A stretch of 64,000 bases of DNA from an uncultured Chthonomonas sp. (GTDB lineage: Bacteria > Armatimonadota > Chthonomonadetes > Chthonomonadales > Chthonomonadaceae): positions 1 to 64,000 of the forward strand of contig CAIONQ010000030.1 of assembly GCA_903859705.1 (NCBI GenBank). Direction: 5' to 3'. Under the pieces are notes generated by a model, which was not told the DNA's origin, did not search any database, and saw only the letters and a program-made list of their open reading frames with translations. This document shows, in pieces, positions 2,547 to 59,073 of the stretch; positions within the stretch are counted from its first letter, which is position 1, and each line of letters opens with the position of its first letter. A program made the translations under genes and the position numbers.

Positions 2547-3749
2547 CTACTTGCGTGCGGTGCTTATGCCCTGCTCTGCTGCCCATCGGCTCATATCTCG
2601 CTTCATGATGGCAGCGGCGATCATATCTGGGAAGAGATCCGGAGTGCAGCCGAATACGGGCGATCCAAGTTCTGAAAAGGCTGCTGCGTTGGTATGATCG
2701 GAGCAGGGCGCACCACGGTCATCCAGTGCCAATAGAGTGATCATATTTACTCCGGATCCTACGATAGATCCCACTCTTTCCAGCATCTGGGCGTTGTTCC
2801 CGCCTTCAAACAGGTCGCTAATTAAGATCATAATTGTATCTGTGGGGCGGCGCACAAGTGTTTGTGCGTAGCTTAATGCCCTGTTGATATCGGTGCCTCC
2901 CCCCAGTTGTGTGCCGAACAGCACATCCACCGGATCTTCCAGCTTTTCGGTTAGATCCACAACAGAGGTATCAAACACTACGAGCGATGTTTTGACCGCC
3001 GGGATGGATGCCATTGCAGAAGCGAGAATACCGGCATAAACCACCGAGCCAGCCATGGATCCACTTTGATCCACCACCAGCACGATATCCCGCAGGCTGC
3101 TGCCTTTACGCCCATAGCCAATGGGCCGTTCCGCAATAACGGTGCGGAGTTCTGGCTGGTAGTTTTTGAGATTGGCCCGGATAGTGCGGTTCCAATCGAT
3201 TTCCTGAAGCCGTGGGCGAGATTTGCGTACCGCCCGATTGAGGCTGCCAATTACTGCCTGACGCAGAGGAGCCTGCAAGCGTTTCAGCACTTCCTGTGTT
3301 ACATGCCTAACCACCGCCCGCGCCGTTTCGCGCGTTTTAACCGGGATGGCACTTTTTAGTGAAAGCAGCGTAGCGGCCAGGGCAACATCTGGCTCGGTGG
3401 CAGCGAGCATTTCTGGCTGGAGCAGCATCTGCTTTAGGCCAAGCCTATCCAGCGCATCTTGCTGCATCACATGAACCGTGCTGGAGGGAAAGTAGCTACG
3501 AATATCGCCGAGCCAGCGTGCTACTCCGGGATTGGAACCGGAAAGGCCGCCCTTGCGGTCGCGATCATACAGATCGCCCAGTGCCCTGTCTACGGCGATA
3601 TCACGTGCAGAGAGTTCAATACCGATGCCATCGGCATTTTCCCCACCAAGTATCATGCGCCAGCGTCGCAGGCGCTCTGCATCCGATACCTGGAGGGCCG
3701 CACTCGCCTCTGTTGCACTGGGTGTATCGTGGATTTCTTGTTCCTTCAT
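2547..3749 (-). CDS. VWA domain protein of the MoxR operon (CoxE-like)
   Basis: 400 residues. The N-terminal 200 residues are helical and without a recognised enzyme signature. A von Willebrand A domain follows, with a complete MIDAS: DQSGSM at about 227-232, a central Thr/Asp region (GGGTDINRAL) and LISDLFEGG further on. VWA proteins of this type bind divalent metal and act as partners or adaptors of MoxR-class AAA+ ATPases in assembly or conflict complexes. The start codon overlaps the stop of the DUF5682 gene by four bases, so the two are translationally coupled. No signal peptide is visible, so the protein is probably cytoplasmic. Family assignment is firm; the target of the complex is unknown. 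Confidence 0.9.
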   Translation of the reverse strand: MKEQEIHDTPSATEASAALQVSDAERLRRWRMILGGENADGIGIELSARDIAVDRALGDLYDRDRKGGLSGSNPGVARWLGDIRSYFPSSTVHVMQQDALDRLGLKQMLLQPEMLAATEPDVALAATLLSLKSAIPVKTRETARAVVRHVTQEVLKRLQAPLRQAVIGSLNRAVRKSRPRLQEIDWNRTIRANLKNYQPELRTVIAERPIGYGRKGSSLRDIVLVVDQSGSMAGSVVYAGILASAMASIPAVKTSLVVFDTSVVDLTEKLEDPVDVLFGTQLGGGTDINRALSYAQTLVRRPTDTIMILISDLFEGGNNAQMLERVGSIVGSGVNMITLLALDDRGAPCSDHTNAAAFSELGSPVFGCTPDLFPDMIAAAIMKRDMSRWAAEQGISTARK

Positions 3750-6064
3750 CCAACGGCCTCCTGCGGTTTCAGGCCCAGAATTCTGCGTAGCACTGGCAGT
3801 ACCAGTGCGGCCCGCTCAGGATCGACCCGGACCGTGCTGATGGAGGAAAAAGCCACAGCTCCCGAAGTTTTGGCTCTCTCGCCCATCTGTCTTCGTTCGC
3901 CAGAGGGAAACTCTCCAAAGGTGCGGCGCACCAGGGGCAATACCGCTTCAAATGCATCCAATGAGAGCCCGGATATCCAGCTATCAATTAGCTGCCACAG
4001 GCTATCGTTGTGCAGCAGAAGCAGCCCACTGCCAGATAGGAAACCTTCTGCCCAGGCGCCAGAATCTTGCGGAGCAGCGGCGGGAGACAGCGCGTAACGC
4101 ATGCGCTGCTCGGTATCTGTTGCACTCCAGGCACCCTGATCCAACAGCAGGCGGCAGGCTCTGCCGGTGATAAGCCCATTTACAGAGTGGGTATCTGCCG
4201 TGCGCTGCAGTGCCTCATGCCACATGGTTGTAAGAGTTTCCTCGGAGAGGATCTGAACCGCCTGATCCACGGTTATTATGCGTGTGTACAGTTGTTTGGC
4301 AGCATCAGTATTGATGCCCATGCTCGCTACCTGCAGGCCGATGCACACACGCACCAGCAGCCCTTCCAGAACATCTTTAACAGAATCGGAAGCCTTGGCG
4401 CGCACGCTACCATAACGGATGGTGTTTACCAGCGGTGGGATGGCATCCATAAGCTGCCCGATGTCCGAGGAGACTCCTGCAGCATTGCGCAGACGCTCCA
4501 TAATAACCGGAACAGCCTCTGGCAGGTCTGCCATTTCGATGTGACCGGTGAGCTTAGCCAGGCTGCTAACCGTGCTTGTTTTATCGTTTGCAAGGCCAAT
4601 TGCTCTGGCAATTGCTGCCATTTGCACGGTGTTGCCCCAGATACTGGCCTCTATCACCTGCACGGCGAACTCGGGCCTCCACTCCAGGTTCCATATTTCA
4701 TGAAACGTGCTGTTGCCGGTTCTGGCGCCGGGCTGCAACTGGCCCCAGGGGATATTGAGGAGATCCAGCCGGGAGAGCAGGATGCTTCGGTCCCGATCCG
4801 TGGTTTTGCGCTGGTCCAGATCCAGAACCTTTCGGTTTACCTCGGGAGGCATGCGGAGCCGCTTTTGTTGCTGGGATAGATCCTGCTGGAGCGGAGCCAC
4901 CGGCGTATCATCCGGTGTTTTGCCAAGCGTGGTACCAATTACCAGCTCACGCTGTATCAGTTCTAGCTGGGCGGTTTGCCCGGCACAAAGCACGGCAAGT
5001 GCCGCTTCCAATAGCTCATCTAACCCTGGTGCGGGCCGCTCTCGCATAGCGGTGAGCGTTTCTGCCAGCCGCACGGCCTCTATTACCGAGGCTGTTGGCG
5101 CTTCCAGCTCGTTATCCCGAAGGAGACGTGCACAGTGAGACATCCAGCGCACAGCGATATCGCCCGGGCTTTTCCAGAGTGCGGCGTAGTAACCAGGCGA
5201 GTCTATACCTGCGCCGTAGCCGCTGGCCACGGCCAGTCGATCGTGGGTCCAGGGGGTCCACGCCGCCGCGGTTTTCACTTTAGGCAAGCCCTTAAGCAGG
5301 GCGCTGTCGTCTTTAACCTTTACTTTCTCAATGCCAGTTAGCGCCGGGGCATGCCATGCGCCGCAAATTACGGCGCACCGCTTGAATCCCTCTTTTTCTG
5401 CTGCGCGAATAGTCTGGCGCATCCAGGCTTCTCGCCTTGCCTCACGTTCGGCATCTGCAGCATCTGGCTGTTCGGTATCTGCCTCGGTGTGCTCACGCAG
5501 CAGGCGCATAAGCTCTGTGATGCCATCAAACACAGCCATTGGGTGGTCTTCAGCACCGCCGTCTGCGGCGGTGCGCTGTTCCACCATTAGCTCCCACCAG
5601 CGCTCACAATCCGAATAGCCCGCTGCCTCGGCAATGGCGCGAAGGGGGTCTACACGAACAGAGATAGTGGGTGTAGGAGCATCCTTTTCGGTTTCGACCT
5701 CTGATTCATCGTTTTCGGTCTCCTCAGCAGCTGGCTGTTCAGGCTTTTGGCCCAGTTGGTGCCACTGTGGTAAATCCATAAACCGAATGGGGATGGCAGC
5801 TTCGAGGCCATATCTGATTGCCTGCCACTCTGGCGAGAAGTCTGCAAAGGGGTAGAAAACTGAATCTGAGGGTGCATCTGGCCTGTAGATAAGCAGCGCA
5901 ACCGGCGGCAGCATATCGGCGGAGGCGGCAAGCGGAATCAAGCCATCGGCATCCGGGGGGCCCTCTACAAGGATAACATCCGGACACAGATGCTGGAGGG
6001 CACGCTGCACACTGCGCGCAGAGCCCGGACCATGATGCCTGATACCAAGAACAGAAACTTCCAT
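3746..6064 (-). CDS. DUF5682 family protein, putative TraB/EreA-like hydrolase
   Basis: 772 residues from the ATG at 6064, eight bases after the MoxR stop. An upstream TTG at 6112 would add 16 residues inside moxR and is less likely, because the family motif starts right after MEVSVLG. The N-terminal 300 residues carry GIRHHGPGSA near the start, PDVILVEGPPDA about 25 residues later and VICGAWHAPAL near residue 240. This H-xxx-S, EGP, GxxH pattern resembles the TraB/EreA/ChaN (TIKI) hydrolase superfamily; that link is my inference from motifs. An acidic, Glu-rich linker follows the first domain, and the C-terminal 450 residues are a helical region with no motif I recognise. No signal peptide. 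Partner genes: MoxR upstream, VWA downstream with a four-base overlap. Confidence 0.85.
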   Translation of the reverse strand: MEVSVLGIRHHGPGSARSVQRALQHLCPDVILVEGPPDADGLIPLAASADMLPPVALLIYRPDAPSDSVFYPFADFSPEWQAIRYGLEAAIPIRFMDLPQWHQLGQKPEQPAAEETENDESEVETEKDAPTPTISVRVDPLRAIAEAAGYSDCERWWELMVEQRTAADGGAEDHPMAVFDGITELMRLLREHTEADTEQPDAADAEREARREAWMRQTIRAAEKEGFKRCAVICGAWHAPALTGIEKVKVKDDSALLKGLPKVKTAAAWTPWTHDRLAVASGYGAGIDSPGYYAALWKSPGDIAVRWMSHCARLLRDNELEAPTASVIEAVRLAETLTAMRERPAPGLDELLEAALAVLCAGQTAQLELIQRELVIGTTLGKTPDDTPVAPLQQDLSQQQKRLRMPPEVNRKVLDLDQRKTTDRDRSILLSRLDLLNIPWGQLQPGARTGNSTFHEIWNLEWRPEFAVQVIEASIWGNTVQMAAIARAIGLANDKTSTVSSLAKLTGHIEMADLPEAVPVIMERLRNAAGVSSDIGQLMDAIPPLVNTIRYGSVRAKASDSVKDVLEGLLVRVCIGLQVASMGINTDAAKQLYTRIITVDQAVQILSEETLTTMWHEALQRTADTHSVNGLITGRACRLLLDQGAWSATDTEQRMRYALSPAAAPQDSGAWAEGFLSGSGLLLLHNDSLWQLIDSWISGLSLDAFEAVLPLVRRTFGEFPSGERRQMGERAKTSGAVAFSSISTVRVDPERAALVLPVLRRILGLKPQEAVG

Positions 6065-6072
6065 GGTTGGCG

Positions 6073-7152
6073 TTACAGGTTCTCGCGGCAGGCGCGGTAC
6101 AGATCTCGCCAACCGTCGCGCTCTTTAACAACGGTTTCCAGGTACTCCTGAAAAACTACTTTGTCCTGAACGGGATCTTTAATGATGGCGCCCACCAATC
6201 CGGAGGCGATATCTGCGGCGGTTATGGCGCCAGATCCGAAGTGAACGGCGAGCGCGGCGCCGTTGTTTACAACCGAGATAGCTTCGGCGGTGCTCATGGT
6301 GCCACCGGGCACTTTGATGCGTGTTTTGCCATCTACAGTTATTCCCGATCTCAGCTCGCGGAAAACCATGACAATGCGGCGGATCTCTTCTATAGAGGCG
6401 GCACTGGCGGGCAGGCGCAGGGCACGGCCCATTTCTCGCGAGCGCTGCTCCACAATCCGCACCTCCTCTTCGAAGGTTGCCGGAAGCGGCAGCACCACGG
6501 TATTGAAGCGCCGTTTGAGCGCCCCCGAGAGCTCGTTTACGCCCCGATCTCTATCATTTGCGGTGGCGATGATGTTGAACCCGCTGATGGCCTGAACTTC
6601 TGAGTTGAGCTCTGGAATGGGCAGTGTTTTTTCCGAAAGGATAGTGATGAGCGAATCCTGCACCTCAGATGGTATGCGCGTGAGCTCCTCCACCCTGCCG
6701 ATTTTGCCTTCGGCCATGGCCTTCATGATGGGGCCGGGCACCATTGCCTTGTCGCTTGGGCCTTCGGCGAGCAGGCGCGCGTAGTTCCAACCATAGCGCA
6801 CAGCCTCTTCGCTAACGCCAGCTGTTCCCTGAACCAGAAGCGTGGAATCGCCGGAGATTGCGGCAGCAAGGTGCTCTGCAACCCAGGTTTTGGCGGTGCC
6901 TGGCACTCCCAGCAACAGGAGGGCACGATCTGTTGCGAGGGTGGCAACGGCAATCTCCATCAACCTACGAGAGCCGATGTACTTCGGTACTATTTCGGTG
7001 CCATCATCCAGTTTACCGCCCAGCAAATAGGTGGTTACAGCACGTGGAGATAGCTTCCAGTTTGGTGGACGCTCTGCGGTATCACAGGCAGCGAGGGCCG
7101 ATAGTTCACTGGCAAACTGGCTTTCCGCATGCTCTCTAAGTACGGAACTCAT
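6073..7152 (-). CDS. MoxR-family AAA+ ATPase
   Basis: 359 residues. It has a Walker A motif GVPGTAKT at 82-89, a Walker B-like GRVEELTRIPSEVQD, sensor 1 ATANDRD and an arginine-finger region GALKRRFNTVVLPLP. These are the hallmarks of MoxR/RavA-type AAA+ proteins, which form hexameric rings that remodel or activate partner proteins, commonly with a VWA protein encoded nearby, as here. Upstream AAAGGAG supports the ATG at 7152. The start overlaps the DUF5691 stop by four bases, and the DUF5682 start follows eight bases after the stop. The protein is predicted cytoplasmic. ATPase identity is certain; the substrate is not known. Confidence 0.95.
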   Translation of the reverse strand: MSSVLREHAESQFASELSALAACDTAERPPNWKLSPRAVTTYLLGGKLDDGTEIVPKYIGSRRLMEIAVATLATDRALLLLGVPGTAKTWVAEHLAAAISGDSTLLVQGTAGVSEEAVRYGWNYARLLAEGPSDKAMVPGPIMKAMAEGKIGRVEELTRIPSEVQDSLITILSEKTLPIPELNSEVQAISGFNIIATANDRDRGVNELSGALKRRFNTVVLPLPATFEEEVRIVEQRSREMGRALRLPASAASIEEIRRIVMVFRELRSGITVDGKTRIKVPGGTMSTAEAISVVNNGAALAVHFGSGAITAADIASGLVGAIIKDPVQDKVVFQEYLETVVKERDGWRDLYRACRENL

Positions 7153-8753
7153 CTCTGCACTGTCTCCTTTCGATCTGCGAATGCGGTGGCCATTTCGGAT
7201 CGGAACTGCATTACGGCAGTGAACTCATCCAGCGATTTTTGCCAGAAGTACTGCCAATCCTGCGATGCGTGGCTGGCGGTTAACAGGCCAGAAAACGCAT
7301 CGGAATACTGAGGTTGGGCTCGGCGTGCCATAAGGCTTACAAGCTCGCGACACTGGTAGGCGCGGACGCTTGCGGGCGGAAGGTCTCGAATAGCCGTGCT
7401 GAGCAAGCTTAACACCGAGATTGTGAACCGTTGCGACCATGCTGCAGTGCACTTGCCTGCTTCGTATGCCAGTGCAACGCCGGCGGCAAGGGCCCCGGTT
7501 GCCATGGTTTGGATAGTGAGCTCTTCCAGCTCAGAAATGGTAAGAATGCTGGATAGCATGAGGGATTCGATACCGCCCACTGCCTTCAACTGCTGGTCTC
7601 CACTCAGGGCAAGGCGCAGCAGTTCGGTAACCAGCTGCCTATCCGCAAAGCGTACAGCACTCTCACGCAGGCCTGCAATTATCTCATCTTTGAACTCTGT
7701 TTTCCAGGCAAGATGAATGAGCTTATCCGGGCTAATGCGCAGGTGAGCGCATAACGCAGCAGAGCGTGTATGGGCAATCAACTGGCGCAACCAGTAGGAA
7801 CGATCCCCCATCCCACTATTCTGGGGAGCTTTCGGCAGCACCCCATCTCTTAGCATGGCCTCATCGCATGCAACCGGCAGGCTAACATCCAGCCTGTCTG
7901 CAATCAGCAGCGTTTTCTTCATGGCAAACAGCGGCAGGGTTCTATCCTGAAATCTGCGGCTCATGCCCGAACCAGGGATCTGCATCAGCAGTTTGGCACC
8001 GATGTGCCGAACCTCTGCACGCCTATCTGTAAGAGTCGCCTCGAGAAGAGGCTCATCGGCTGTGCTCAGGCCGGTGCTCAAACAATCCAGAAAGGCGGCC
8101 TTTTCTTCCCACTTTTCCTTATCCCACACTCCCATTACCATGGTTAGGCCCTGCGCCGCATTTTGTGAGCGGATTGCCGTGAGAGCCTGTAAGCGCTCTT
8201 CTTTGCCGCCAGTTTCGAAGAGGTAAACAAGCTCCTGATTGGCTGCGGGAATATCCACAGCTGCAAGTGCCCATTTCCAGTTGGGAGCCTGAGTAACCAT
8301 GGCAAGCCAGCGTGCCCTGCTGCCGGCTACCGCCAAAACACGGGTACGTAGGCTCTTATCCGAATGCGCCGCATCCAGTAGACCGGGCAGGTACTCTGGC
8401 AGCGGAGCCACACCATGAAGTTCTGCGAGCTCTAACCACTCTGGCAGAAGCTCTCTTCGATTGCTGTTATCAGCAAGGATAGTGCCAAGGCAGGAGATGG
8501 CATGGGTGTTTGCGGGCGGAGCTTCCCTCCCCTCGAACGGTGGAATGGCCGAGGAAGCTGATCCAAGCACGGCACCCGCGGCAGACGTAAGTGCTGCTAT
8601 CCCGGCGGCACGCAGCAGCGAAGTTTCTCGGGAAGCTGCCCAATCCAGCTCCGAATATGGGCCGACTTCTCCGGCAAATGCAGACTGTGCGGGGAGTGGC
8701 CCACCGGGCACTGCTGCCGCCTTTGCCAGAAGATGAAGTGGGGATTGCATCAC
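7149..8753 (-). CDS. DUF5691 family protein, helical solenoid
   Basis: 534 residues, almost entirely helical, with many Leu/Ala-rich repeats of about 30-40 residues (for example EWLELAELHGVAPLPEYLPGLLDAAHSDKSLRTRVLAVAGSR split by short loops), suggesting a HEAT-like scaffold. Size and position between a SWIM protein and a MoxR ATPase match DUF5691, a family found in this same neighbourhood in cyanobacteria, actinobacteria and others. I see no catalytic motif. The start overlaps the SWIM gene stop by four bases and the stop overlaps the MoxR start by four bases, so stoichiometric co-translation with both is likely. It may be the structural scaffold of the complex (inference). Confidence 0.85.
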   Translation of the reverse strand: MMQSPLHLLAKAAAVPGGPLPAQSAFAGEVGPYSELDWAASRETSLLRAAGIAALTSAAGAVLGSASSAIPPFEGREAPPANTHAISCLGTILADNSNRRELLPEWLELAELHGVAPLPEYLPGLLDAAHSDKSLRTRVLAVAGSRARWLAMVTQAPNWKWALAAVDIPAANQELVYLFETGGKEERLQALTAIRSQNAAQGLTMVMGVWDKEKWEEKAAFLDCLSTGLSTADEPLLEATLTDRRAEVRHIGAKLLMQIPGSGMSRRFQDRTLPLFAMKKTLLIADRLDVSLPVACDEAMLRDGVLPKAPQNSGMGDRSYWLRQLIAHTRSAALCAHLRISPDKLIHLAWKTEFKDEIIAGLRESAVRFADRQLVTELLRLALSGDQQLKAVGGIESLMLSSILTISELEELTIQTMATGALAAGVALAYEAGKCTAAWSQRFTISVLSLLSTAIRDLPPASVRAYQCRELVSLMARRAQPQYSDAFSGLLTASHASQDWQYFWQKSLDEFTAVMQFRSEMATAFADRKETVQR

Positions 8754-10102
8754 ACCTCCTCCTGGCTGCAGAGCAGAATACAGCGTGTGCCTGCCCAGGC
8801 GGCAAGCGGCTTAAAGACGTATCCATCCCATTCCCCGCTGATCTGCACCGGGTGCCCGCCAGAGAATGCAAGCAAGCGGCGAGCGTATGCGTCCCAGATA
8901 TCTAGCGGGATCGCATTGCCATCTGCAGAGTTCAGTAAAATACGGTTGTTGTGCCATGCCGGGGTAACGCCGTTGATGGTTACAGGGTACGTTTGAAGCC
9001 ATGGATCTTGAGCAAGGGCTTCGGCATACCGGGTTTGCCAGTTGTTTGAATCATTTTGGGCGACAATCTCGGCGGCAGTAATGGAAACTGGAACTGGCTC
9101 TATGCTTTTCACCAACGCACGCAGCGCGAGCGAGCCCGGGTAGAAGCACAGTTCGCCGCCAATGCAGCCACCGGGCGGTATGCCTGGCTCCAGGCCCTGA
9201 TGGGCGGGCGCAAAGCTCAGCCACAGTGCCGTGGAGCCCGTATTGGTGCCCATGAGCCATGTTCTGCGTACGATGCCCGGCTCTTCGTAGCTAAGACGGG
9301 TTCCAATGCAGGCCCACGTATCTCTAACAGTGGGACCAGAAAGAACCTCTTCGCGCTTAACGGGCCAACCGATGTGGCCCCGCACCGTTTCTCGAAGATC
9401 AGGCGTCAGAGATTCCAAATTCCGATACGCATCAATCAGCAGCTGGAGACTGCCTAATTCGCTCAGCAGGCGCTGGACCCATGCCATACCATCCAGACCC
9501 TTTGTTGCTTCACCAAGCTGGCGGATACGACGCGCCAGGCCTGGAGCCTGGGCATCTACCAGGCGGGCAGAGCGGTTAACCCAGGTTTGTGTGGACATGT
9601 TTTTGCCTGAGGCCAACCCCTGCCGAACCTGATCCTGCAACCACAGATCCAGTTCGTCAATGCCTGCTGCAACCTTCTTTTCCCTGTCATCGGCGCGCTT
9701 CAGCTGTTGAGCGGCCGCTTTCACGGGGTCTGCCGGTGTTTTTGCCTCGGCCTTTTCTGCCTTTTCGGATTGCCGTTCATCGCGCTTCTGTATCCACTCC
9801 ACCACACGCGGTGGTGGTGCGGCGATACCGAATGCGTTGGGCTGAGCGGCGAATATTAGCAGCAGTGCAAGCCCGTGCTTGCATGGAAACTTACGGCTGG
9901 GGCAGGTACATTTGAAGGCTGGCTCGGTGAGGTCAATTTGTACGGCGTAGGGTTTGGAGCCGCTACCAGGGCAATCTCCCCACAGGCAGCGTTCATCGCG
10001 CTCCAGGCCGTGCCAACGGGAAGCCGAAGCAAGGGATCGGCCAGCACTGGCCGAACTGCTATCCGGAGCAAGAGCAAGTACCTGTTCTGCTGTCCAGCTC
10101 AT
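8750..10102 (-). CDS. SWIM zinc-finger protein
   Basis: 450 residues. A SWIM motif sits near the N-terminus: CTC at 65-67 followed by CKH at 74-76 (CxC-x6-CxH), which binds one zinc and usually mediates nucleic-acid or protein contacts. A charged, Lys/Glu/Ala-rich helical segment follows at about 130-170, then a C-terminal half with Trp-rich stretches and no recognised enzyme motif. It is the first gene of the tightly overlapped five-gene MoxR cluster, starting at an ATG at 10102, 118 bases after the S1C protease stop. Its stop overlaps the DUF5691 start. Role in the cluster, perhaps substrate or nucleic-acid recognition, is inference. Confidence 0.9.
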   Translation of the reverse strand: MSWTAEQVLALAPDSSSASAGRSLASASRWHGLERDERCLWGDCPGSGSKPYAVQIDLTEPAFKCTCPSRKFPCKHGLALLLIFAAQPNAFGIAAPPPRVVEWIQKRDERQSEKAEKAEAKTPADPVKAAAQQLKRADDREKKVAAGIDELDLWLQDQVRQGLASGKNMSTQTWVNRSARLVDAQAPGLARRIRQLGEATKGLDGMAWVQRLLSELGSLQLLIDAYRNLESLTPDLRETVRGHIGWPVKREEVLSGPTVRDTWACIGTRLSYEEPGIVRRTWLMGTNTGSTALWLSFAPAHQGLEPGIPPGGCIGGELCFYPGSLALRALVKSIEPVPVSITAAEIVAQNDSNNWQTRYAEALAQDPWLQTYPVTINGVTPAWHNNRILLNSADGNAIPLDIWDAYARRLLAFSGGHPVQISGEWDGYVFKPLAAWAGTRCILLCSQEEV

Positions 10103-10220: not shown

Positions 10221-11936
10221 TTATCGCGGTGGGGCCACCTCGGCAAAGGTGTGGCCAAACCGTACCTCATCAAAGGCCACCATGGCATTGGTCCCAAGCC
10301 CGAAATCGGAAGGTTCCCCTGTATTCTGGTCGGTTTTTACGGCATCCGCCTGATCTGGGAGCGGTTTACCCGGAGTGGGATTTATAAAAAGCTCTATTTT
10401 GTCATTTTCGTTTTTCTCACCAAAGGTGATGCGCACCACCAGAAAGGCAGTTTTATCGTTAACTACCGGGTAAACCGTATCAACCCGGCCACCTCCGCCT
10501 CCATGCTCGATTCCATACATGCCAGAACCGCCGCCTTTGCCGATTGAAAGTCCACCGTAGCTAAGCTCGAAGTACACTCCGGAATGGCCGGGCTGTGTTA
10601 CGTTTAACGGGTGCACAAGGTAGCTTATGTACAGGGTCTTGCCCACTTTTCCCGGCGATACATGAAACTTTCTGGCGTGGCCAATAGGCCCATTTGAGGT
10701 GGTTCGGATGGCGTTACCAGAGCTACGCAAACCGGGAAAAGTGAGCCCGGCATCGGTTACAACGGAAGGTGTGTAGCCATACCCATGTTCGTTCCAGCCG
10801 CTGCCCCAATCCCCAGTTCCGCCGTTCTGGCCATTAAAGGTCATTCCGGCAGGGTAATCAAAGCCATCGTACAATACGCCAGCCACGGCAGGCCGGGGAG
10901 AAACGGGTGACGATGGATTTGGCACAGGTTTGGGCTCAGGCAGGGAGCGATGGCCACCGGCCGATATCTCCAGGGTGCCCAACTCTTCTGCAACCTTCTT
11001 ACCGTTGCGGGAGACGAGGATGCCATAGGCAACCGCATCTGGCGTAGGCGAGGGATGCCCTTGAACCGGTACGATGTGGGCAACATAGTGTTGCCCATCC
11101 GTAGTGGTGGCTCGCACAGTACGTACCGGCTCCTTGCCATCGGTAATACTGAAAACAACGCTGGCAGCCGGCCCCTCTGGCTGGTTAAGCAGGTCTATAT
11201 GAAAATCCTGCGGCTCTCCAAGGCGATCTGCCTGCAGTTGTGCGGGCGACTTAAGCCGAATATTGATGGCCTGCAGAAAGAGCTCCAGGCGGCTGACCGG
11301 AATGGCAAGGTTTATGCCGGAACCGGGAATACCTGCCATAACAATGCCGATTACCTGGCCCTTTGGATCCAATACCGGCCCGCCAGAATTACCTTCGTTT
11401 AGAGAGGCATCGATCTGGATTGAATAGAGTTTGCCGTTTGTGCGGCGCAGCGAGGTAATGTGCCCGGTGCTAACGCTGATAGAGGGATAGTCACCTTTGT
11501 TGAGCGCCAGGTCTGAGCCGAATGGATAGCCGAACGCTACAATCGGCATAGTTTCTACAAGGCCTGAGATGCTGCCTAATGTGAGAGGCGTAACATTGGG
11601 TGGGCTGGAGGTTTGAAGCAGGGCAAGATCGTGCGTTGGGTCGGCCTTTACCACCACTGCGGATAGTTTAGCCTGATCTTCTTCGCCCGCATGAATAATC
11701 AGAGTGACTTTGCCGCCGGGTTTTAGCCCCTCTACAACATGAGAGTTGGTAATAAATTTTCCGGATTTATCGATGCAAAAAGCAGAGCCTTCGGAAGTAC
11801 CTTCGGCCTCTTCCACCATTACAAATGCAGTGGCTTTTTTGGCGGCCTGAATTACCGCAATTGGAGGCTGCGCGCTTGCTGGCAAAGCAAGAAACAACAA
11901 TACAAGAAAATGGCACGCCTGCAGGAATCGTTTCAT
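10221..11936 (-). CDS. Exported S1C (HtrA-like) serine protease with lectin-like C-terminus
   Basis: 571 residues from ATG 11936; a GTG directly before it is an alternative, but GGGGAG is better spaced for the ATG. A signal peptide is clear (FLVLLFLALPASAQ). The trypsin-like domain at about 30-230 has the full triad: His66 in TNSHVVEG, Asp103 in HDLALL and Ser184 in NEGNSGGPV. No PDZ domain follows. Instead there is a beta-rich segment, a Pro-rich linker (about residues 335-350), and a terminal 200-residue region beginning LYDGFDYPAG and rich in Gly, resembling concanavalin A/LamG-like carbohydrate-binding folds. The protein is expected to be periplasmic or extracellular. It lies upstream of, and in line with, the MoxR operon but with a 118-base gap, so co-transcription is possible rather than shown. 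Confidence 0.88.
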   Translation of the reverse strand: MKRFLQACHFLVLLFLALPASAQPPIAVIQAAKKATAFVMVEEAEGTSEGSAFCIDKSGKFITNSHVVEGLKPGGKVTLIIHAGEEDQAKLSAVVVKADPTHDLALLQTSSPPNVTPLTLGSISGLVETMPIVAFGYPFGSDLALNKGDYPSISVSTGHITSLRRTNGKLYSIQIDASLNEGNSGGPVLDPKGQVIGIVMAGIPGSGINLAIPVSRLELFLQAINIRLKSPAQLQADRLGEPQDFHIDLLNQPEGPAASVVFSITDGKEPVRTVRATTTDGQHYVAHIVPVQGHPSPTPDAVAYGILVSRNGKKVAEELGTLEISAGGHRSLPEPKPVPNPSSPVSPRPAVAGVLYDGFDYPAGMTFNGQNGGTGDWGSGWNEHGYGYTPSVVTDAGLTFPGLRSSGNAIRTTSNGPIGHARKFHVSPGKVGKTLYISYLVHPLNVTQPGHSGVYFELSYGGLSIGKGGGSGMYGIEHGGGGGRVDTVYPVVNDKTAFLVVRITFGEKNENDKIELFINPTPGKPLPDQADAVKTDQNTGEPSDFGLGTNAMVAFDEVRFGHTFAEVAPPR

Positions 11937-12061
11937 CACATCTCCCCGGGGTACAACATCTCGTGCTAACTTCGGCGCATATTCCCCGCGGTAAGCACTG
12001 CTTCCTCCTGCGGTTGCAAAAGGGATATTCGCTTCACAACAACATATGCAGGCAACGGAGT

Positions 12062-43626: not shown

Positions 43627-44241
43627 TCAACTCTTGTAATGGTTGTCTTCTTCTGCAGGATTCAGCTCTGGAAAGGTGATGCCCTCATATAGCTCTGCCA
43701 GTGGCAGTTCAACGCTGTGCAGGCCGAGGGGCTCGGTGGCTTGAATTCCCAGATAAGCGGTGTACCTCCAACCATTGTCGGAAGTACGGCTAAAGACCTC
43801 AACAGATGCAGCCTGCTGCGAGATTAGCACATAGGTTTGGAGCGAAGGTATCGTCTGGTAAGCAAGCCACTTCGCCCCGCGGTCGCGATGTTCGGTGGTT
43901 GTTGACAGCACTTCGAAAATAACTGAAGGGTTTTCAAGTGCATCCAGCCCAGCAATTCGCTTAAGCTGTGGATCACCGCAATAGATAGTACAATCCGCAT
44001 ACAGGTAGTTCTTAGAATCTGGTGTGGTGATTCGCATGTCGCTGCCGAGAGCACTGCAGCCACCTGGCTTAAGCAACCGCTGTGCAGCCATCAGTATGTT
44101 CGTGGCAATCCGAACGTGCGAAAAATCGGGCCCCGTCATCGCAACGATCACGCCGTTTTCATACTCGCTCTTCATATCGTATTTTGCTTCCAGAGCCAGG
44201 TACTCTTCATGCGTAACCGGCTTTACACGCTCAGCTAGCAT
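43627..44241 (-). CDS. Uma2 family protein (PD-(D/E)XK nuclease fold)
   Basis: 204 residues from ATG 44241 with GGAGG seven bases upstream. THEEYLALEA, NGVIVAMTGPDFSHVRIATNI, YADCTIYCG and PSVIFEVLSTTT are the Uma2 (DUF820) landmarks; the Asp of YAD and the Glu of FEVLS match the nuclease core, with a downstream Lys in GAKW. The family is abundant in cyanobacteria, Chloroflexi and Armatimonadota, usually as isolated copies, and its role is not established. No methyltransferase lies next to it. Confidence 0.93.
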   Translation of the reverse strand: MLAERVKPVTHEEYLALEAKYDMKSEYENGVIVAMTGPDFSHVRIATNILMAAQRLLKPGGCSALGSDMRITTPDSKNYLYADCTIYCGDPQLKRIAGLDALENPSVIFEVLSTTTEHRDRGAKWLAYQTIPSLQTYVLISQQAASVEVFSRTSDNGWRYTAYLGIQATEPLGLHSVELPLAELYEGITFPELNPAEEDNHYKS

Positions 44242-44304
44242 TTGTTTGCCTCCGAGTTTGCACCACCAAATAATGCAGCACAATTATTATACAACTGGTA
44301 TGGT

Positions 44305-51279: not shown

Positions 51280-53718
51280 TTACGCAGGCAAAGTGCAGGA
51301 TGTTTGTGCATCGGCTGGCACCCATCGGAGATTGCCTACGTATCGCCACAGGGCAGCGCCTTCCTCCTCTATTGCGATGAGATGCACCCATCCATTGTCC
51401 AGTAGTTCGCACACAGCAGGCAGGACCGAGATTGCGTCGTTAAGCATGGTTCGCGGCGCCTCGATAAACGCCGAAAGCCGCAGCGGCTCATGGCGGAGTT
51501 TATCGCCATCCATCACGGATTCTTTTGGCAGCCCCATTCGCAGTGGCCCACCGTTGCCAGAGATCACTCCAAGATTGCCAACAAGGTTGTGGGCGGTTTT
51601 GGTACCGCTGCCGAATATTTCGTTATCTACCGTGGATGCAAAGTACTGCAAGTTAATCCAGGCCGCTACCACAAGTGGAGCGGCGAGTATAAGTTTGAGC
51701 ACATCCGGCCCCTGATCGGAGTGGTAGTTATGCAGAAATGCCCTGGATTTAAGGTTACAGGCAACTGTTCTGGCTCTGGGTGCAGCAATGAATGCGGCAT
51801 TGCCAGCAAGCCCCCACTCTGGCATTGTCTCGGCCCAGTTACGGTTGCTGCGCCGCAGGCTCTGGGTGGTCCCGCGGTCCTGCTTAGCTTCCTCCTGCAG
51901 AAGCTGTTCTGCACACTTAATGCCGAGTTTCAGTTCTTCAAGATAGGGCTGAAAGAGCTCCGGCATCTTCTCGGTATCAAATACCTGAAGCTCCTGTACC
52001 GTTGTATCGTGCAAGGCAGGCAGGAACCAGGTATCCTCCGGCACCTCAATTCCTTTGTGTTTTAAGCCAGCTCTTACCGGCTGGCTGTTTAAAATTTGAG
52101 CGGCAATGCGCGCATTGTTCTCTCCTGTATGGCCACCACAGGCGCCACAATCCAGGGCAGCGCCATATGCATTGTTAACGCTGCTTGAGCCATGGCCGCA
52201 AAAGAGCACCAGTTTTGCAAAGTTATGGGTTAGCCCCATGTTTTTCAAGGCTGCTGTGGCGGCATCTATCTGATCCTCCAGGCTAATTCCAGCCAACCCC
52301 TTACTGTCATCTGTGTCGAGCACTATCGTTGTTCCGCTAACAACCTGCTTTCCGTTCCCGATCCCGAGGATATCCTTCACAAAGGCAGCAGCGTTCAGCA
52401 AACCGGCAGCCTCCACAAACGAACAGCTGCCAGGCAGTGCCGTTTTCATTGCCTTCCAGGCAGACTTGCTGCGGCTGCGTTGATCCGCATTGAGTGCCTG
52501 GGCAGCAGTTGCAAATTCATGTACGCGCCAACGTGGTTTTATAAGTGCGGGGCAAAGTGCAGTTCCGTGCGTGCTTCCCACAGGCACATACTCTATTGGG
52601 AAGCCAAAGAAGCCGGCAAAGCCTACGGTCTCAATCCGATCGGATTGCTGTTCCAGCGCTCTGCGCATTGGCTCTGAGCGAACATCGATGCAAAACACCA
52701 TCTGGGCTAATGGCGTGCCCGATGCAGGAGTTTGCGGCCCAAGGGTAAAGCTCCCAGCCACTGACCGCTGAAGTGCAAACTCGAGTGCACATTGGCAAAC
52801 GAAACTGAGCACCGTTGCAGAGGTGATCTCTCCACCGGGAACGTGGCCAGCTATGGATGTGCGCCATGCCAATTGTGTTTGCGGTGTGCAGCAATCTTTG
52901 AATATCGCGACATGGTATGCAAGCAGAATAGCAAGCAGATCCACCAGCAATGATGTGTCTTCCACTTGTTGTGCGGCAATCCCACTCCACCCTCCGGCAG
53001 AGAGAAGCAACCTGTGCATTAAATCTGCGACGGCCGCTGGCGCTGGCTGAAGCATCTCGAGGCAGTGGCAGATCGCTTCGAAGCTACTCTGCGGCAAACC
53101 AGCAACAAAGCCCCGTAAGCCCACTATTCCGGCAATTTCCGCGGATCTATCATGCTTTGCAGAAGCCTGCCACCATGCGTAGAGCCCGGCCGAACGCTGA
53201 GGTATATTTCTGCCAGCCTCATCGGCTGTAAACCAACTTGCGCACCACCGGGTTACTTCGTTTCCTGTGGCTTCAAAGCATCTGGTGCCCGTTTGTAAGT
53301 CGAGCAGTTCCGCCGGGCTTCGTATGCATGCCGCATGGTCTACGGGTACGGGTGCCACTTCATCCGTAACGAGAGACGCCATAACGTACTGTGCAGAGAT
53401 GCCTTTTATAAAGTGAGCAGCATCTGCTGGAAGTGTGCGGGAGGCGTAAGCCAGTGCGGTTTCAATATCCTGTTCCTTGAACTTGCCTTGTGCCCACTGT
53501 TCTCGATACCAGCTAATTGGCATCAGTGTTCTGCCATGTGATGCCGCCTGCATCAGTGTGGCTGCAGAAATAAAGTGCCGGGATGTTAGGCCAAGATATG
53601 GATTGACAGCCACAAAATTGCTAATTGGAAATTGTGGAGCAATTCGTGAGCATGCATCCTGCACGGCAGACCATGTTGCCGTATTCGTAGCAGAATTTGT
53701 AGGTTCTAAGGCTATCAT
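51280..53718 (-). CDS. dabA: Inorganic carbon transporter subunit DabA (DUF2309)
   Basis: 812 residues. The beta-carbonic-anhydrase-like zinc site is complete: Cys343 and Asp345 in CIDVRSE, His509 in FCGHGS and Cys524 in LDCGACGGHTG. DabA is the cytoplasmic subunit that, with DabB, converts CO2 to bicarbonate in one direction, driven by ion flow. The start SNFVAVNPYLGL is typical. Its ATG overlaps the dabB stop by four bases. Outside autotrophs the system supports growth at low CO2 by supplying bicarbonate to carboxylases. Confidence 0.97.
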   Translation of the reverse strand: MIALEPTNSATNTATWSAVQDACSRIAPQFPISNFVAVNPYLGLTSRHFISAATLMQAASHGRTLMPISWYREQWAQGKFKEQDIETALAYASRTLPADAAHFIKGISAQYVMASLVTDEVAPVPVDHAACIRSPAELLDLQTGTRCFEATGNEVTRWCASWFTADEAGRNIPQRSAGLYAWWQASAKHDRSAEIAGIVGLRGFVAGLPQSSFEAICHCLEMLQPAPAAVADLMHRLLLSAGGWSGIAAQQVEDTSLLVDLLAILLAYHVAIFKDCCTPQTQLAWRTSIAGHVPGGEITSATVLSFVCQCALEFALQRSVAGSFTLGPQTPASGTPLAQMVFCIDVRSEPMRRALEQQSDRIETVGFAGFFGFPIEYVPVGSTHGTALCPALIKPRWRVHEFATAAQALNADQRSRSKSAWKAMKTALPGSCSFVEAAGLLNAAAFVKDILGIGNGKQVVSGTTIVLDTDDSKGLAGISLEDQIDAATAALKNMGLTHNFAKLVLFCGHGSSSVNNAYGAALDCGACGGHTGENNARIAAQILNSQPVRAGLKHKGIEVPEDTWFLPALHDTTVQELQVFDTEKMPELFQPYLEELKLGIKCAEQLLQEEAKQDRGTTQSLRRSNRNWAETMPEWGLAGNAAFIAAPRARTVACNLKSRAFLHNYHSDQGPDVLKLILAAPLVVAAWINLQYFASTVDNEIFGSGTKTAHNLVGNLGVISGNGGPLRMGLPKESVMDGDKLRHEPLRLSAFIEAPRTMLNDAISVLPAVCELLDNGWVHLIAIEEEGAALWRYVGNLRWVPADAQTSCTLPA

Positions 53719-55301
53719 GCGTAAAGCTCCCCGTTCCGGGTGAGAGTGCTGTCAGACGTAGAGTAGTGCGGCTGATGCACAGGTTCACGCCTCATTAGCA
53801 GGGCATTAAAGCAGTTACCGATGTAGAACCCAGATTGGGCCATGGTAATGAAGGCGGGACTTATACGGGCAGTTAGCCGCCTTGCTAATGGCGCCATGGC
53901 ACCCATTGCCAGCCCGGCTACGATGAGCAAGGCTGCAAGTGTGCTGAAGAGTATCGGGTGATGGTTAACTGGCATAACAACCATGGAGGCAAACATGCCG
54001 CACAGCAGGTGGTACATGGCGCACAGGGCTGCAGTTACTCCCACACCATTCAAAACGCTCCCAGGGGTTACCGCGCCTTCCCATCGCCTTGCGAGCCCGC
54101 CACCTATGGCAGATATCAGCACGATCTGCAGGCACCATTCGGCCAATGTGTGGCCAGTAATGGGCAGCAAAAGAGCACTTACGGCAACTGCAGTGGCGCT
54201 TGCAACCGCGTAACCAGGCACACTCTGTGAAGGGGTCGGGTTTACAGTTGGATTGCATGCGGGCTTCACAGTACTGGATCGCAAGAATGCATGCGCCTTA
54301 TAAATTGCATGCGCGGCAAGATGAAGGCCCGCTGCGCCATAAGCCCCGAGCCCGATCTCAGCCATCATAAAGCCCATTTGAAGCACAGTGGAATATGCGA
54401 GCGAGCGTTTAACAGAAACCTGGCACGGCAACGCCATAGCTGCCACACACATGGTAAGCACCCCCGCTGTAAGAGCCACACAGGATGCCGCCGTGCACAT
54501 GCTAACCATGCCTGATGTGCGTAGGAGCAGCAAACCTCCTGCGTTTACGATGCCAGCGTGCATGAGTGCGGAAACAGGAGTTGGCGCATCCAGGGTATCT
54601 GGCAGCCAGCTAAAAAATGGAAACTGAGCAGATTTGAAGCAGGCTCCCAGCACCATGAGAACACAGGGAAGCTGTAGCGCAGCAGAAGATGTGTGTATCG
54701 CTGCCATATGCATGCTCTTGAATTCTACCGATGCCAGCCGATGTTCAAACAGGTACATAGCCGCGAACAGACATACATCACCCAGCCTGCTGACAATGAA
54801 CTTTTGCCATGCCGCCGCTGCTCCAGAAGAGCTCAACCTGTTGAAAGTTAGCAACGGATGCAGCACCAGCCCAGCGGCTATCCATGCTGCAAGAAACATG
54901 GGAAGGGAAGCTGACAGAGGCAGCATGCTAACACAGCCAATGGCAGCGCCGATGAGCTGCATAAATCGTCCGCTCCTCTCATCGGCCCTCATGTAACGCC
55001 GGGAGAAGCCTGAAACGGCAACCGCAAGTAGGGCGGTGAGCATTCCATAGGTGCGAGCCATAACATCCAGTGTGAATGATGGTCCGTTAGACAGCACGCT
55101 GGAGTTGACAAAGGGAGCGACAAATAGGGAGACCGAACCCAAAATGATTGCGTTAACCATGCAGCAAGCCTGAATAAAAGACGCAAAAGCAAGACGGTGC
55201 TTATGCACCACTTTCCCGGGAATCAGCAAACTGAGAAGCAGCACTGCAGGCATTGATAATATCAGCGCCCATACGAGTGGCTTCAACACCAGTGGGTTCA
55301 T
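53715..55301 (-). CDS. dabB: Inorganic carbon transporter subunit DabB (NuoL-like)
   Basis: 528 residues with about 13-14 membrane helices. It belongs to the proton-channel subunits of complex I and Mrp antiporters: FIVSRLGDVCLFAAMYLFEH, SAQFPFFSWLPDTLDAPTPVSALMHA (written here in part: PFFSWLPDTLDAPTPVSALM) and LAYSTVLQMGFMMAE. It is shorter than NuoL and lacks the long lateral helix, as DabB does. It provides the ion path that drives DabA. A TTGACA/TATTAT promoter lies about 60 bases upstream; dabA follows with a four-base overlap. Confidence 0.95.
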   Translation of the reverse strand: MNPLVLKPLVWALILSMPAVLLLSLLIPGKVVHKHRLAFASFIQACCMVNAIILGSVSLFVAPFVNSSVLSNGPSFTLDVMARTYGMLTALLAVAVSGFSRRYMRADERSGRFMQLIGAAIGCVSMLPLSASLPMFLAAWIAAGLVLHPLLTFNRLSSSGAAAAWQKFIVSRLGDVCLFAAMYLFEHRLASVEFKSMHMAAIHTSSAALQLPCVLMVLGACFKSAQFPFFSWLPDTLDAPTPVSALMHAGIVNAGGLLLLRTSGMVSMCTAASCVALTAGVLTMCVAAMALPCQVSVKRSLAYSTVLQMGFMMAEIGLGAYGAAGLHLAAHAIYKAHAFLRSSTVKPACNPTVNPTPSQSVPGYAVASATAVAVSALLLPITGHTLAEWCLQIVLISAIGGGLARRWEGAVTPGSVLNGVGVTAALCAMYHLLCGMFASMVVMPVNHHPILFSTLAALLIVAGLAMGAMAPLARRLTARISPAFITMAQSGFYIGNCFNALLMRREPVHQPHYSTSDSTLTRNGELYA

Positions 55302-55671: not shown

Positions 55672-56733
55672 TCAATCTATTGCAACAAAACTCTGGTCGA
55701 CATAATCAGCGCTTTTTACACGGCGGTCAAGCTTCCGCTCATAACTCTTATCGCTATGGCGGGCAATCTCTAAGACACGAAGTTCGCCACTATCACGGGC
55801 AGCTTCGAAAAACACGCGTTCATCTCGATGCCCCCCCGGGTAGATTAAACAATCAGAGGGCGGCTCTTGACGTGCAGCAGTCATCCAGAGAGATGGCACC
55901 CTGAGCTTTTTAAATACACTATCAAACCGCCCTCTGGTATTTGAGTCTAATGCAAGGTAGTCCTTATGCGCCGATGGAGAGAGTTTGATTGATGCTGATC
56001 CTGTTTCAAGAATATCCTGATACCGTTCAAAAATGGCATAACCAATGGGTGATACTGTATAGTTACCATCTTCCTGCTGGAGCACCAGTGTCGCCATCTT
56101 TGCTGGCATCCCTTTTAGGCGGTTCTCCGTTTCTCTTGCTTCCCGGCTATCTGCACCAAACAGCCATTCACAGAACTCTTCATGCTCCGCAAGCAAGTGA
56201 TAGTCCCAACCGATGGGCGACGTTGGCATCTCTATAATTTCGCTAAATTGCTCATGTATGTAATAAACGGGCACGTCAAACAGTTGCCCAACCATAGTAG
56301 CGTATGCGGTTTCCGCCTTAAATCCACCTGTAGCACAAATGATAGGCTGCCGCTGTACTTTTTTCGCTTCCATGATCCGTTCGATAATCAGACTAACCAA
56401 CGACTTGAGTCCCCTGGTTTTGAACTCCTCTGCACTCGACACAATGCCATAGATTTCACACATGGTCACACTATAGTCTGCGTAATTTAAATGTAACGCC
56501 GCTGCACACAACTTACCTTCCGGTGTGCAGGAGTGTAACAGGTCTATCGTGGCTGATTTGTCAAGCAACCTGGAAAGAGAATTTGTTTCCGCACTTGCCT
56601 CAGTCACCGGGGTCTGCTTGAGGTAGCGCGCGAGAACATCAAGCTCTGGCAACGGCCCACCAGGATGCAGGCTGTTTGCTTTACGATAGTTGGAAAGCAC
56701 CGATGTGCCAACCGTTGTGATCACTGTTTTCAT
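55672..56733 (-). CDS. CARF - winged helix - RelE-like CRISPR effector (Cami1-type)
   Basis: 353 residues from ATG 56733 (AGAGG seven bases upstream). Residues 1-175 are a CARF domain of the APE2256/Csm6-related kind: ITTVGTSVLSN at 5-15 and CATGGFKAETAYA at 133-145, the ligand-binding loops. A winged-helix-like segment follows at about 190-240 (MPAKMATLVLQ, YTVSPIGYAIFERY). Residues 247-340 align by eye with RelE toxins: IKLSPSAHKDYLALDSNTRGR helices, then ERVFFEAARDSGELRVLEIARHSDKSYERK split over the strand-strand-helix end, with Arg325 and Tyr331 where RelE has catalytic Arg81 and Tyr87. No HEPN motif. Cami1 proteins are cOA-activated ribosome-dependent mRNA interferases. It follows cmr6 by 54 bases. 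Confidence 0.8.
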   Translation of the reverse strand: MKTVITTVGTSVLSNYRKANSLHPGGPLPELDVLARYLKQTPVTEASAETNSLSRLLDKSATIDLLHSCTPEGKLCAAALHLNYADYSVTMCEIYGIVSSAEEFKTRGLKSLVSLIIERIMEAKKVQRQPIICATGGFKAETAYATMVGQLFDVPVYYIHEQFSEIIEMPTSPIGWDYHLLAEHEEFCEWLFGADSREARETENRLKGMPAKMATLVLQQEDGNYTVSPIGYAIFERYQDILETGSASIKLSPSAHKDYLALDSNTRGRFDSVFKKLRVPSLWMTAARQEPPSDCLIYPGGHRDERVFFEAARDSGELRVLEIARHSDKSYERKLDRRVKSADYVDQSFVAID

Positions 56734-56787
56734 TGTTTTGCCTCTCGTAAACACCTTAATAACGGTTCGCAGCGGTAAATGGAAATC

Positions 56788-57783
56788 CTACCGTGCAGTC
56801 ACCCTCACAACCGTAAAAGTATTGCCGTCGCGCATACCCTGGACATCCACGGCGGTTGCAGCTTTATCGACTTTGCCCCGAAGACTATCGTCAAGCGAGG
56901 CGTACAGAGCCCTGGCGATGCTGCCATCCATTGTTGCAAGCCGTTGGCGATTAGTAACATAACTGAAGTCGATTTTATCTGCCCCGCGTCGCTTAATAAA
57001 GTACACATTTTCTACTGTTTCCAGCGGCAATGGTGCTTTCTCTATCCTCTCAAACGTGCCGTATCCTGCATTAGTTTTACCACCGGCTCCCAGGGTGCGC
57101 AGGGACCACAGGGTCAATTCCCTTACAAAATCCTGCCAGCCTTCTGGTGTGCAAAGAGTGAACAGAAATACGGCATCTGGTCTGACCGATAAGAATTGCA
57201 CAGGATTGGGTTCATCGTAATCTGTAGGATATTTGCGCATGCCGCCAGCACCTGTATAATAGTCTGCATGGTGCACTGTTAGCACATCCCGTTTAAGAGG
57301 GTATTTTATGCTTTCAGGGTCAAACCATGCATCCCAGAAGATGCATCCACCACTCAGCTCAGTATCACCGAACAACAAAACAAACTGATCCTGAGTTAAT
57401 CGTTGTTCTTTGACCAGCAGACTAGCCCCGGCCCTCACTACACCTTTAAGTGAGGAGCCTGGCAAGTACGGCACACCATACGTGTGATGCAAAGTAATTC
57501 CCACTCCCGTGGGTGAAGCAGCCCCTGCTCCGGCCAGCAGCGGGGCAGAGAGCCGGGCACCAAAGCGTAGAGCACCTGGCATGTGCAATTGCTTCCAACG
57601 GTGAAATGCAGTGTGATACGCATCCGAGGTATGTATCGCAGTGGCAGCCTTCAACAGGTAAGCCTGGTCTGCTTTGCTTCCGCCGCACTCTTGTGTTCGC
57701 AGGAAGCGCGTTAATAACAGGCCAGTGTGCTGCGCTTCTTCAATTGGCATGCATTGAAGGTGGTTTCGTATTGCAGATGTCAT
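56788..57783 (-). CDS. cmr6: Type III-B RAMP protein Cmr6
   Basis: 331 residues, at the long end for Cmr6. RAMP landmarks: GITLHHTYGVPYLPGSSLKGVVR, split as GVPYLPGSSLKGVVRAGA, FLFGDTE-like LLFGDTELSGG and the Gly-rich loop GAGGKTNAGYGTF. It caps the head of the Cmr backbone next to Cmr1. The C-terminal 75 residues after the Gly loop are longer than usual and of unknown role. ATG 57783 overlaps the cmr5 stop by four bases. Confidence 0.93.
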   Translation of the reverse strand: MTSAIRNHLQCMPIEEAQHTGLLLTRFLRTQECGGSKADQAYLLKAATAIHTSDAYHTAFHRWKQLHMPGALRFGARLSAPLLAGAGAASPTGVGITLHHTYGVPYLPGSSLKGVVRAGASLLVKEQRLTQDQFVLLFGDTELSGGCIFWDAWFDPESIKYPLKRDVLTVHHADYYTGAGGMRKYPTDYDEPNPVQFLSVRPDAVFLFTLCTPEGWQDFVRELTLWSLRTLGAGGKTNAGYGTFERIEKAPLPLETVENVYFIKRRGADKIDFSYVTNRQRLATMDGSIARALYASLDDSLRGKVDKAATAVDVQGMRDGNTFTVVRVTAR

Positions 57784-58199
57784 GTATTACCGTCCTCCCC
57801 AGATGCATCGCTTACTCCAAGCACCGATTCTCCAAAGCGTTTGAAATAGATCCAGCAGGATAACACTGCCTTAGTATCCAGCATGTAACCAACCATTTCT
57901 TTTCCCTGGATCGCCTCAAGAACCTCGGAAGGCGATGCGCTCTGGAGATTCAGCACCCGCCCAACATGGTTCACTAACAGGGTATGCGCTTTCTCTCTGC
58001 CCGATTTGTTCGCGCCCCCTTTTGCAACACTAAATGCCAGGCTCTGGCAAAGCCCACAGGTGCGCACCATAACCGGGAACTTGTGGCAAAGACCACCGTA
58101 TACTTGAGCGATTTGAGCGTCCGCTTCGGCGGCCGCCTTTACGTCTTTTACACAGTTGTATGCCAGTTCCATTTCCAACTGGGCTTTTGTTCTTCTCAT
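57780..58199 (-). CDS. cmr5: Type III-B small subunit Cmr5
   Basis: 139 residues, all-helical, typical size. It stacks along the inner belly of the Cmr complex and contacts target RNA. It contains GGLCHKFPVMVRTCGLCQSL and the basic patch KGGANKSGREKA. Start overlaps the cmr4 stop, end overlaps the cmr6 start, each by four bases. Confidence 0.92.
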   Translation of the reverse strand: MRRTKAQLEMELAYNCVKDVKAAAEADAQIAQVYGGLCHKFPVMVRTCGLCQSLAFSVAKGGANKSGREKAHTLLVNHVGRVLNLQSASPSEVLEAIQGKEMVGYMLDTKAVLSCWIYFKRFGESVLGVSDASGEDGNT

Positions 58200-59041
58200 T
58201 CTGCTATCACCAATCTGCAGAGACCTCTGCCTATCGATGCTTTGCCCCCAACTTGAATTAGTGATCCTGCATTGGACAAATGCTTGAGCGCAAGATCAAA
58301 TGCGGCTCTGTGTGTTGCGGAGTGCTGATCTGTAGAAACAATAGCGCCGCAGAAAATAGCTTCTGCTGGCACAGCCTCTTCATACCAGAGAGCGGTTGTG
58401 GTTTTTGTGTCTGGGTTGAGTGAATTTCGGGCGCTCACCTCGGTTGCGGTTTCGCACAGAAAGCTGAAAACTGTATTGCTTACTACTACAAAGCGGCTGC
58501 AGAACGACTCTTGTTCTGCCTCAGTGGTAAAGATCAGGGATGCAAGAAGTGAGGCTACTGCAGTGGCGGTTTCATCCGCGTTGCTGTCAATATCCAGGTC
58601 TTCCAGGCAAACTTTGCCCGTTTTTGCGATCTTACTGTTGCGAGTTACCAGCGCAATCTCGTCTGCAGTATCTGGCACACATAGGTTGGCAGTTGCCATT
58701 CCTACACTGAGGGCAGACCTATCGCGCTGAAGTCGTTCCAGGGCATATGGGCAGGTAACCAGTGCATACGTACCGTAGAAACTACGTACTGGCAGCAACA
58801 GAAGCTTTTGATCCGAAAAGCTAACGGATCCCGCAGCATCGACGCTACCAAAAATAGCGGCCTCATCTGCTTTATCCGCTTGAGACCGCAGCACGCCTTT
58901 TAAGCTACTTGCGGGGATGAACGGCCAGCCAGTGGCCTTTTCCCTGGCTACGGGCAGATCAATAACTGCAGGCGTTTGGCCAGTGCCAGAGTGCACAGGC
59001 GTTAACGCGTGAAGAAATATGGATTTGAATCCAACACTCAT
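58196..59041 (-). CDS. cmr4: Type III-B backbone RNase Cmr4
   Basis: 281 residues. LTPVHSGTGQTPAVIDLPVARE carries the catalytic Asp at residue 28 (IDLPVARE), followed by PFIPASSLKGVLR. Cmr4 copies form the backbone filament and cut the target RNA every six bases. The Gly-rich end GGKASIGRGL is present. The ATG at 59041 has only a weak ribosome site, and lies 32 bases after the cmr3 stop. Confidence 0.96.
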   Translation of the reverse strand: MSVGFKSIFLHALTPVHSGTGQTPAVIDLPVAREKATGWPFIPASSLKGVLRSQADKADEAAIFGSVDAAGSVSFSDQKLLLLPVRSFYGTYALVTCPYALERLQRDRSALSVGMATANLCVPDTADEIALVTRNSKIAKTGKVCLEDLDIDSNADETATAVASLLASLIFTTEAEQESFCSRFVVVSNTVFSFLCETATEVSARNSLNPDTKTTTALWYEEAVPAEAIFCGAIVSTDQHSATHRAAFDLALKHLSNAGSLIQVGGKASIGRGLCRLVIAE

Positions 59042-59073
59042 TACGGCTCACATCCTTTCTGTTTCCTGGCCAT

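Follow-up and report, generated by a model that had tools for sequence, protein, structure and literature searches.

We conclude that the five-gene operon on the minus strand of the window, by which we mean the whole 64,000-nucleotide stretch of DNA analysed, is the same system as the yehL-yehM-yehP-yehQ genes of Escherichia coli. This chaperone operon is conserved and uncharacterised but belongs to a known kind, as its MoxR ATPase is placed by sequence within the YehL subfamily. The operon runs from 10102 to 2547 in the order SWIM, DUF5691, MoxR, DUF5682 and VWA, and all five genes are complete (Table 1). The original prediction had put five open reading frames on one strand here and had given them these family labels; the coordinates were reproduced, and each label was matched in Pfam. 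It had further described the four junctions as 4-base overlaps or an 8-base gap, which we find as three 4-base overlaps (8750-8753, 7149-7152 and 3746-3749) and an 8-base gap between the MoxR and DUF5682 genes (6065-6072). No inverted repeats were found at the operon ends. Upstream of the SWIM gene, at a distance of 118 bases and likewise on the minus strand, lies a gene for a trypsin-like peptidase (10221-11939), which was not among the families that recur beside the operon at other loci.

Table 1. The five genes of the operon, in the order in which they are read
Gene product	Position in window	Strand	Length	Family match
SWIM zinc-finger protein	8750..10102	-	450 aa	Pfam SWIM 2.3e-5
DUF5691 protein	7149..8753	-	534 aa	Pfam DUF5691 4.6e-90
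MoxR AAA+ ATPase, YehL subfamily (by sequence)	6073..7152	-	359 aa	Pfam AAA_5 6.8e-37
DUF5682 protein	3746..6064	-	772 aa from ATG 6064	Pfam DUF5682 8.9e-256
VWA_CoxE protein, presumed partner of the MoxR ring	2547..3749	-	400 aa	Pfam VWA_CoxE 3.3e-46

The gene set had been expected to recur across distant phyla and to form one functional unit, and gene order and co-occurrence agree with both expectations. For the locus survey we took the best 80 of 585 relatives in one collection scan, so that the sample is biased towards close relatives. Among these 80, all five families were present in 59 loci, 56 of which kept the canonical order on one strand, and at least four families were present in 46 of the 51 loci that had enough flanking sequence to either side. 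The loci came from Cyanobacteria, Chloroflexota, Planctomycetota, Bacteroidota, Pseudomonadota, Actinomycetota and Verrucomicrobiota. Within the window's own phylum the distribution is patchy, with DUF5682 in 27 of 251 genomes and DUF5691, above its cut-off, in 20 of 251; every one of the DUF5691 genomes (20/20) also has DUF5682 (hypergeometric P 5e-24, kinship ignored). In one genome (G011), SWIM-DUF5691 lies on a different contig from MoxR-DUF5682-VWA, yet both are there. Pairwise identities correlate between the five families (Spearman 0.44-0.81), a pattern that shared ancestry could also produce by itself, and the median identity falls from 71% for MoxR, the most conserved subunit, through 60% for VWA, 45% for DUF5682 and 38% for SWIM to 25% for DUF5691, the least conserved. 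We note that in two streptomycete loci (L099 and L105) SWIM-DUF5691 is divergent from MoxR-DUF5682-VWA, and that in three others (L064, L111 and L089) 2-4 kb of other sequence separates MoxR from DUF5682.

The assignment to the YehL subfamily, one of seven named MoxR subfamilies (PMC3893208), is drawn from several comparisons. The window MoxR is ~40% identical to YehL over 95%, and in a tree it clusters with YehL of E. coli and not with the MoxR paralogues encoded in its own genome, which together with RavA are separated from it by a long branch; support is 92/96, from a rough bootstrap on a tree with long branches that is not fully settled. In a plasmid search, the best MoxR matches were 40-70% identical over nearly their full length, other MoxR matches being partial and at most 34% identical, and a sequence search of solved structures retrieved Midasin and NorQ. 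The MoxR signatures are intact (Walker A GVPGTAKT, sensor-1 N199 and RR214-215), as is the MIDAS of the VWA protein (DQSGSM, D227xSxS231; GGGTD, 283-287; D312); Walker A, sensor 1 and the arginines are conserved in 97 MoxR sequences and the MIDAS in 90 VWA sequences. The Walker B motif reads RVEELTR, with EE where DE is usual, and both glutamates, E155 and E156, show at least 97% conservation across the 97 sequences. No function for the YehL subfamily was found in the literature searched, as the original prediction had stated for the operon, and a literature search by DUF number found nothing.

The SWIM protein has its SWIM domain at residues ~47-90, followed by a long helical middle and a beta-rich C-terminal part. 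Its CxC..C.H motif (C65xC67...C74xH76) is invariant in 55 sequences. The AF2 model (pLDDT 93) gave weak fold matches to ZSWIM8 and OB-fold proteins, none of them significant: nothing was found at E<=0.001, and the OB-fold matches had E >0.01. A sequence search of solved structures likewise gave nothing significant for this protein. SWIM and DUF5691 can be fused, as they form a single open reading frame in two Planctomycetota loci (L038 and L079) and in Hymenobacter (L170). Further, some lineages, E. coli among them, lack DUF5691 or have a diverged form of it, and no DUF5691 is recognised in Iodobacter; we therefore consider it not essential.

DUF5682 seems to consist of a TraB/TIKI-like hydrolase domain set on a helical solenoid. 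Its AF2 model (pLDDT 90.3) predicts an N-terminal alpha/beta domain, the TraB/TIKI-like part of which spans residues ~1-100 and 205-290, and then a C-terminal helical solenoid. H10, H11, E34, E79, D97, R211, M215 and H238 are invariant in 76 DUF5682 sequences, and H10/H11, E34, D97 and H238 fall at the C-terminal ends of predicted strands in the model; the structure alignment left out the E. coli sequence. The motif order resembles that of TraB, with GxxH, an E ~24 residues later (~26 in TraB) and then R...M...GxxH. A TraB profile scored 34.3 against the R211...M215...GAWH238 segment (single-comparison E 5e-4), compared with a mean of 14.6 (sd 2.6, maximum 24.7) in 200 column-shuffled controls and 14-18 for unrelated profiles. 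The significant match is confined to the R...M...GxxH segment; the N-terminal GxxH is in register with TraB and on its own is not significant. With the model as query, Foldseek gave nothing at E<=0.001, and the matches listed were mostly solenoids, with no TIKI, TraB or ChaN structure among them; a sequence search of solved structures gave nothing significant for DUF5682. ChaN was also considered as a relative and rejected, its profile match being no better than chance. One difference from the TraB/TIKI superfamily (TraB, Tiki, erythromycin esterase and ChaN) is the large helical solenoid that DUF5682 carries. Overall, the motifs and the profile match make DUF5682 likely kin to TraB/TIKI, and a hydrolase function is probable for its N-terminal domain. 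Enzymes of the TIKI type can act as peptidases through a 2His/2Glu site (PMC6254334).

The reading that we prefer, at a probability of roughly 0.5, is that of a YehL-type MoxR-VWA chaperone operon in which the motor twists the VWA protein and so remodels or switches either DUF5682 or a target presented by SWIM-DUF5691. In NorQ-NorD, the motor NorQ twists the VWA protein NorD by a finger that enters the NorQ pore, and the authors of that work expect other AAA+/VWA pairs to behave likewise (PMC13036017); by analogy, we infer NorQD-type twisting for the pair in the window. MoxR would form an AAA+ hexamer whose pore is entered by a finger of the VWA protein, and ATP hydrolysis would rotate the latter, as in NorQ-NorD. 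The VWA protein would hold DUF5682, with the DUF5682 solenoid as a scaffold, and SWIM and DUF5691 may jointly form a recognition arm that presents the target, so that the ATP-driven twist could open or switch DUF5682 or the bound target. By this scheme the five proteins would form a complex, with DUF5682 as either its enzyme or its client. A bolder and more tentative version would make DUF5682 a new, ATP-gated peptidase or hydrolase of the TIKI type, switched by MoxR-VWA and served by an exchangeable arm (SWIM-DUF5691, or SWIM with WGR-DUF4132), in a system that spans phyla and is fixed in E. coli.

That the five genes are chance neighbours or unlinked housekeeping genes is highly improbable. 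Single loci do break up, and in two (L043 and L056) DUF5682 stands without most of its partners although the flanks leave room. However, the order is held in 56 loci across phyla, and the genes are not independently distributed, as seen in the 20/20 co-occurrence of DUF5691 with DUF5682; on these two grounds we regard this explanation as refuted. The fused subunits and the 4-base overlaps also speak against it, as does the genome-reduced E. coli DGF-298, which is without molR, yehI and yehL-M-P-Q (PMC10652928), indicating that the yeh set is dispensable for growth. A machine for genotoxic stress, in which MoxR-VWA remodels nucleoprotein, SWIM and WGR/DUF4132 touch DNA and the operon acts after damage, is unlikely but draws on a recurrent extra partner. 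Genes for DUF4132 (WGR/MolR-type) are linked to MoxR-DUF5682 in four lineages: E. coli; Iodobacter, which like E. coli has SWIM after VWA and DUF4132 genes before MoxR; Agrobacterium vitis, with the order MoxR-DUF5682-DUF4132; and Chitinophagaceae, where a DUF4132-family gene follows VWA or, in one locus, lies between DUF5682 and VWA. The LexA targets listed for E. coli include molR (PMC11039860, PMC4576408, PMC3978071), depletion of DdrO strongly upregulates DRA0166 (DUF4132) and DR2173 (WGR) in Deinococcus radiodurans (PMC8533742), and the SWIM protein is weakly OB-fold-like. Against these points, the OB-fold matches miss significance, no LexA- or DdrO-type box was found in 56 upstream stretches (from the window, the other operons and the E. 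coli genes), and, by count, the one LexA-like site close to yehF does not exceed what chance would give. Further, the window's own genome is without DUF4132, and in its phylum DUF4132 is not enriched with DUF5682 (6/27 DUF5682 genomes vs 37/251, P 0.19), for which reasons DUF4132 was also rejected as a core subunit.

It is rather doubtful that the operon serves to insert a metal or cofactor into some target that is not part of it, in the manner of NorQD and CbbQO, with DUF5682 as a scaffold that has lost catalysis. NorQD does insert iron into nitric oxide reductase (PMC13036017), the window VWA protein falls in the VWA_CoxE family, and an old report, cited in PMC8533742, ties molR to molybdate utilisation. 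However, the window MoxR sits in the YehL clade and is only a distant relation of the CoxD-type and remaining MoxR-vWA sequences in the tree, the residues of the putative DUF5682 active site do not vary among the 76 sequences, and no metalloenzyme family was found to recur beside the operon in the neighbour survey. The original prediction favoured an effector complex, perhaps for conflict, for stress or for maturing a target. An anti-phage or conflict MoxR-VWA ternary system, in which ATP-driven switching frees the DUF5682 hydrolase as the effector, seems to us a poor prospect, even with a hydrolase-like subunit present, a patchy distribution in the phylum (27/251) and relatives of the operon on some plasmids, and with MoxR-VWA-VMAP conflict systems known (PMC7159879), some of them CRISPR-associated (PMC10910872). 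The yeh operon is core in E. coli: 5301 of 5426 genomes carry it, 5162 of them with 80% or more of the query at a single place, and 5320 of its 5322 places are chromosomal. The curated defence models of PADLOC gave no specific match for the five proteins: the best, to PDC-S62 (6.2e-5), covered only a 44-residue SWIM stretch, and those to IetA and mad8 were weak (0.002-0.03). Pfam found no VMAP, TCAD, EAD or beta-propeller domains in the five proteins and scored bpMoxR at 21.4 bits, below its cut-off of 27. Each defence family matched at most two of 132 flanking genes, as scattered single matches and without a matched control, and the type III CRISPR system of the window is ~46 kb distant. Of the original prediction, then, the unit and its recurrence hold, as do the MoxR motor with its VWA partner (domains and motifs intact), the zinc finger (SWIM match in Pfam and invariant motif) and the hydrolase-like protein (TraB-like motifs and a partial profile match), whereas conflict finds little support, given the core status in E. 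coli, the weak PADLOC matches and the absence of recurring defence neighbours. As for the solenoid scaffold in that prediction, it is putative for DUF5691, and the structure model predicts a helical solenoid in the C-terminal part of DUF5682. A role in stress or in maturation of a target is the better guess.

Elsewhere in the window, on the minus strand, PADLOC identifies a type III-B CRISPR-Cas locus at 55672-63990 (Cas6, Cmr1, Cas10, Cmr3, Cmr4, Cmr6 and a CARF-RelE-like protein) and a protein at 43627-44283 that matches the candidate family PDC-S03 (6e-20). At 51280-55301, also on the minus strand, DabA adjoins a proton-antiporter-type membrane protein, likely an inorganic carbon transporter pair. 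A phage origin of the operon was considered and rejected, as the sole match in a phage collection (MT835988.1, 'Bacteriophage sp.'; our locus L169) is an unverified scaffold with genes of bacterial type. It carries MoxR-DUF5682-VWA together with MgsA/RarA-like and DUF5717 genes and looks like a misfiled bacterial contig.

The link to the YehL system, the reading of DUF5682 as a hydrolase and the DUF4132/MolR partners together offer concrete hypotheses for a long-open case. Like the window operon, NorQ-NorD (PMC13036017) pairs a MoxR ATPase with a VWA partner that has a MIDAS, the finger-in-pore twisting being presumed for the window; it differs in belonging to another MoxR subfamily, in having a known metalloenzyme target and in having no DUF5682, SWIM or DUF5691. 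RavA-ViaA of E. coli likewise consists of paired MoxR and VWA genes with a chaperone-like role, but RavA lies on its separate long branch and the pair has no DUF5682-type partner. The MoxR-vWA-VMAP ternary conflict systems (PMC7159879) share with the window operon a MoxR-VWA core with extra subunits; the window operon is unlike them in having none of their VMAP, TCAD, EAD and beta-propeller domains, in its sub-cut-off bpMoxR score and in its relative being core in E. coli. The closest likeness is to that relative: in E. coli K-12, yehL (MoxR), yehM (DUF5682), yehP (VWA) and yehQ (SWIM) lie in a row, so that the MoxR, DUF5682, VWA_CoxE and SWIM families stand together as they do in the window. 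The order there is MoxR-DUF5682-VWA-SWIM, whereas SWIM comes first in the window; E. coli has no recognised DUF5691, whereas the window has one; and, unlike in the window, WGR and DUF4132 genes (yehF, yehH and yehI) precede yehL. Because K-12 carries this four-gene version, the function of the system can be tested directly in laboratory E. coli.
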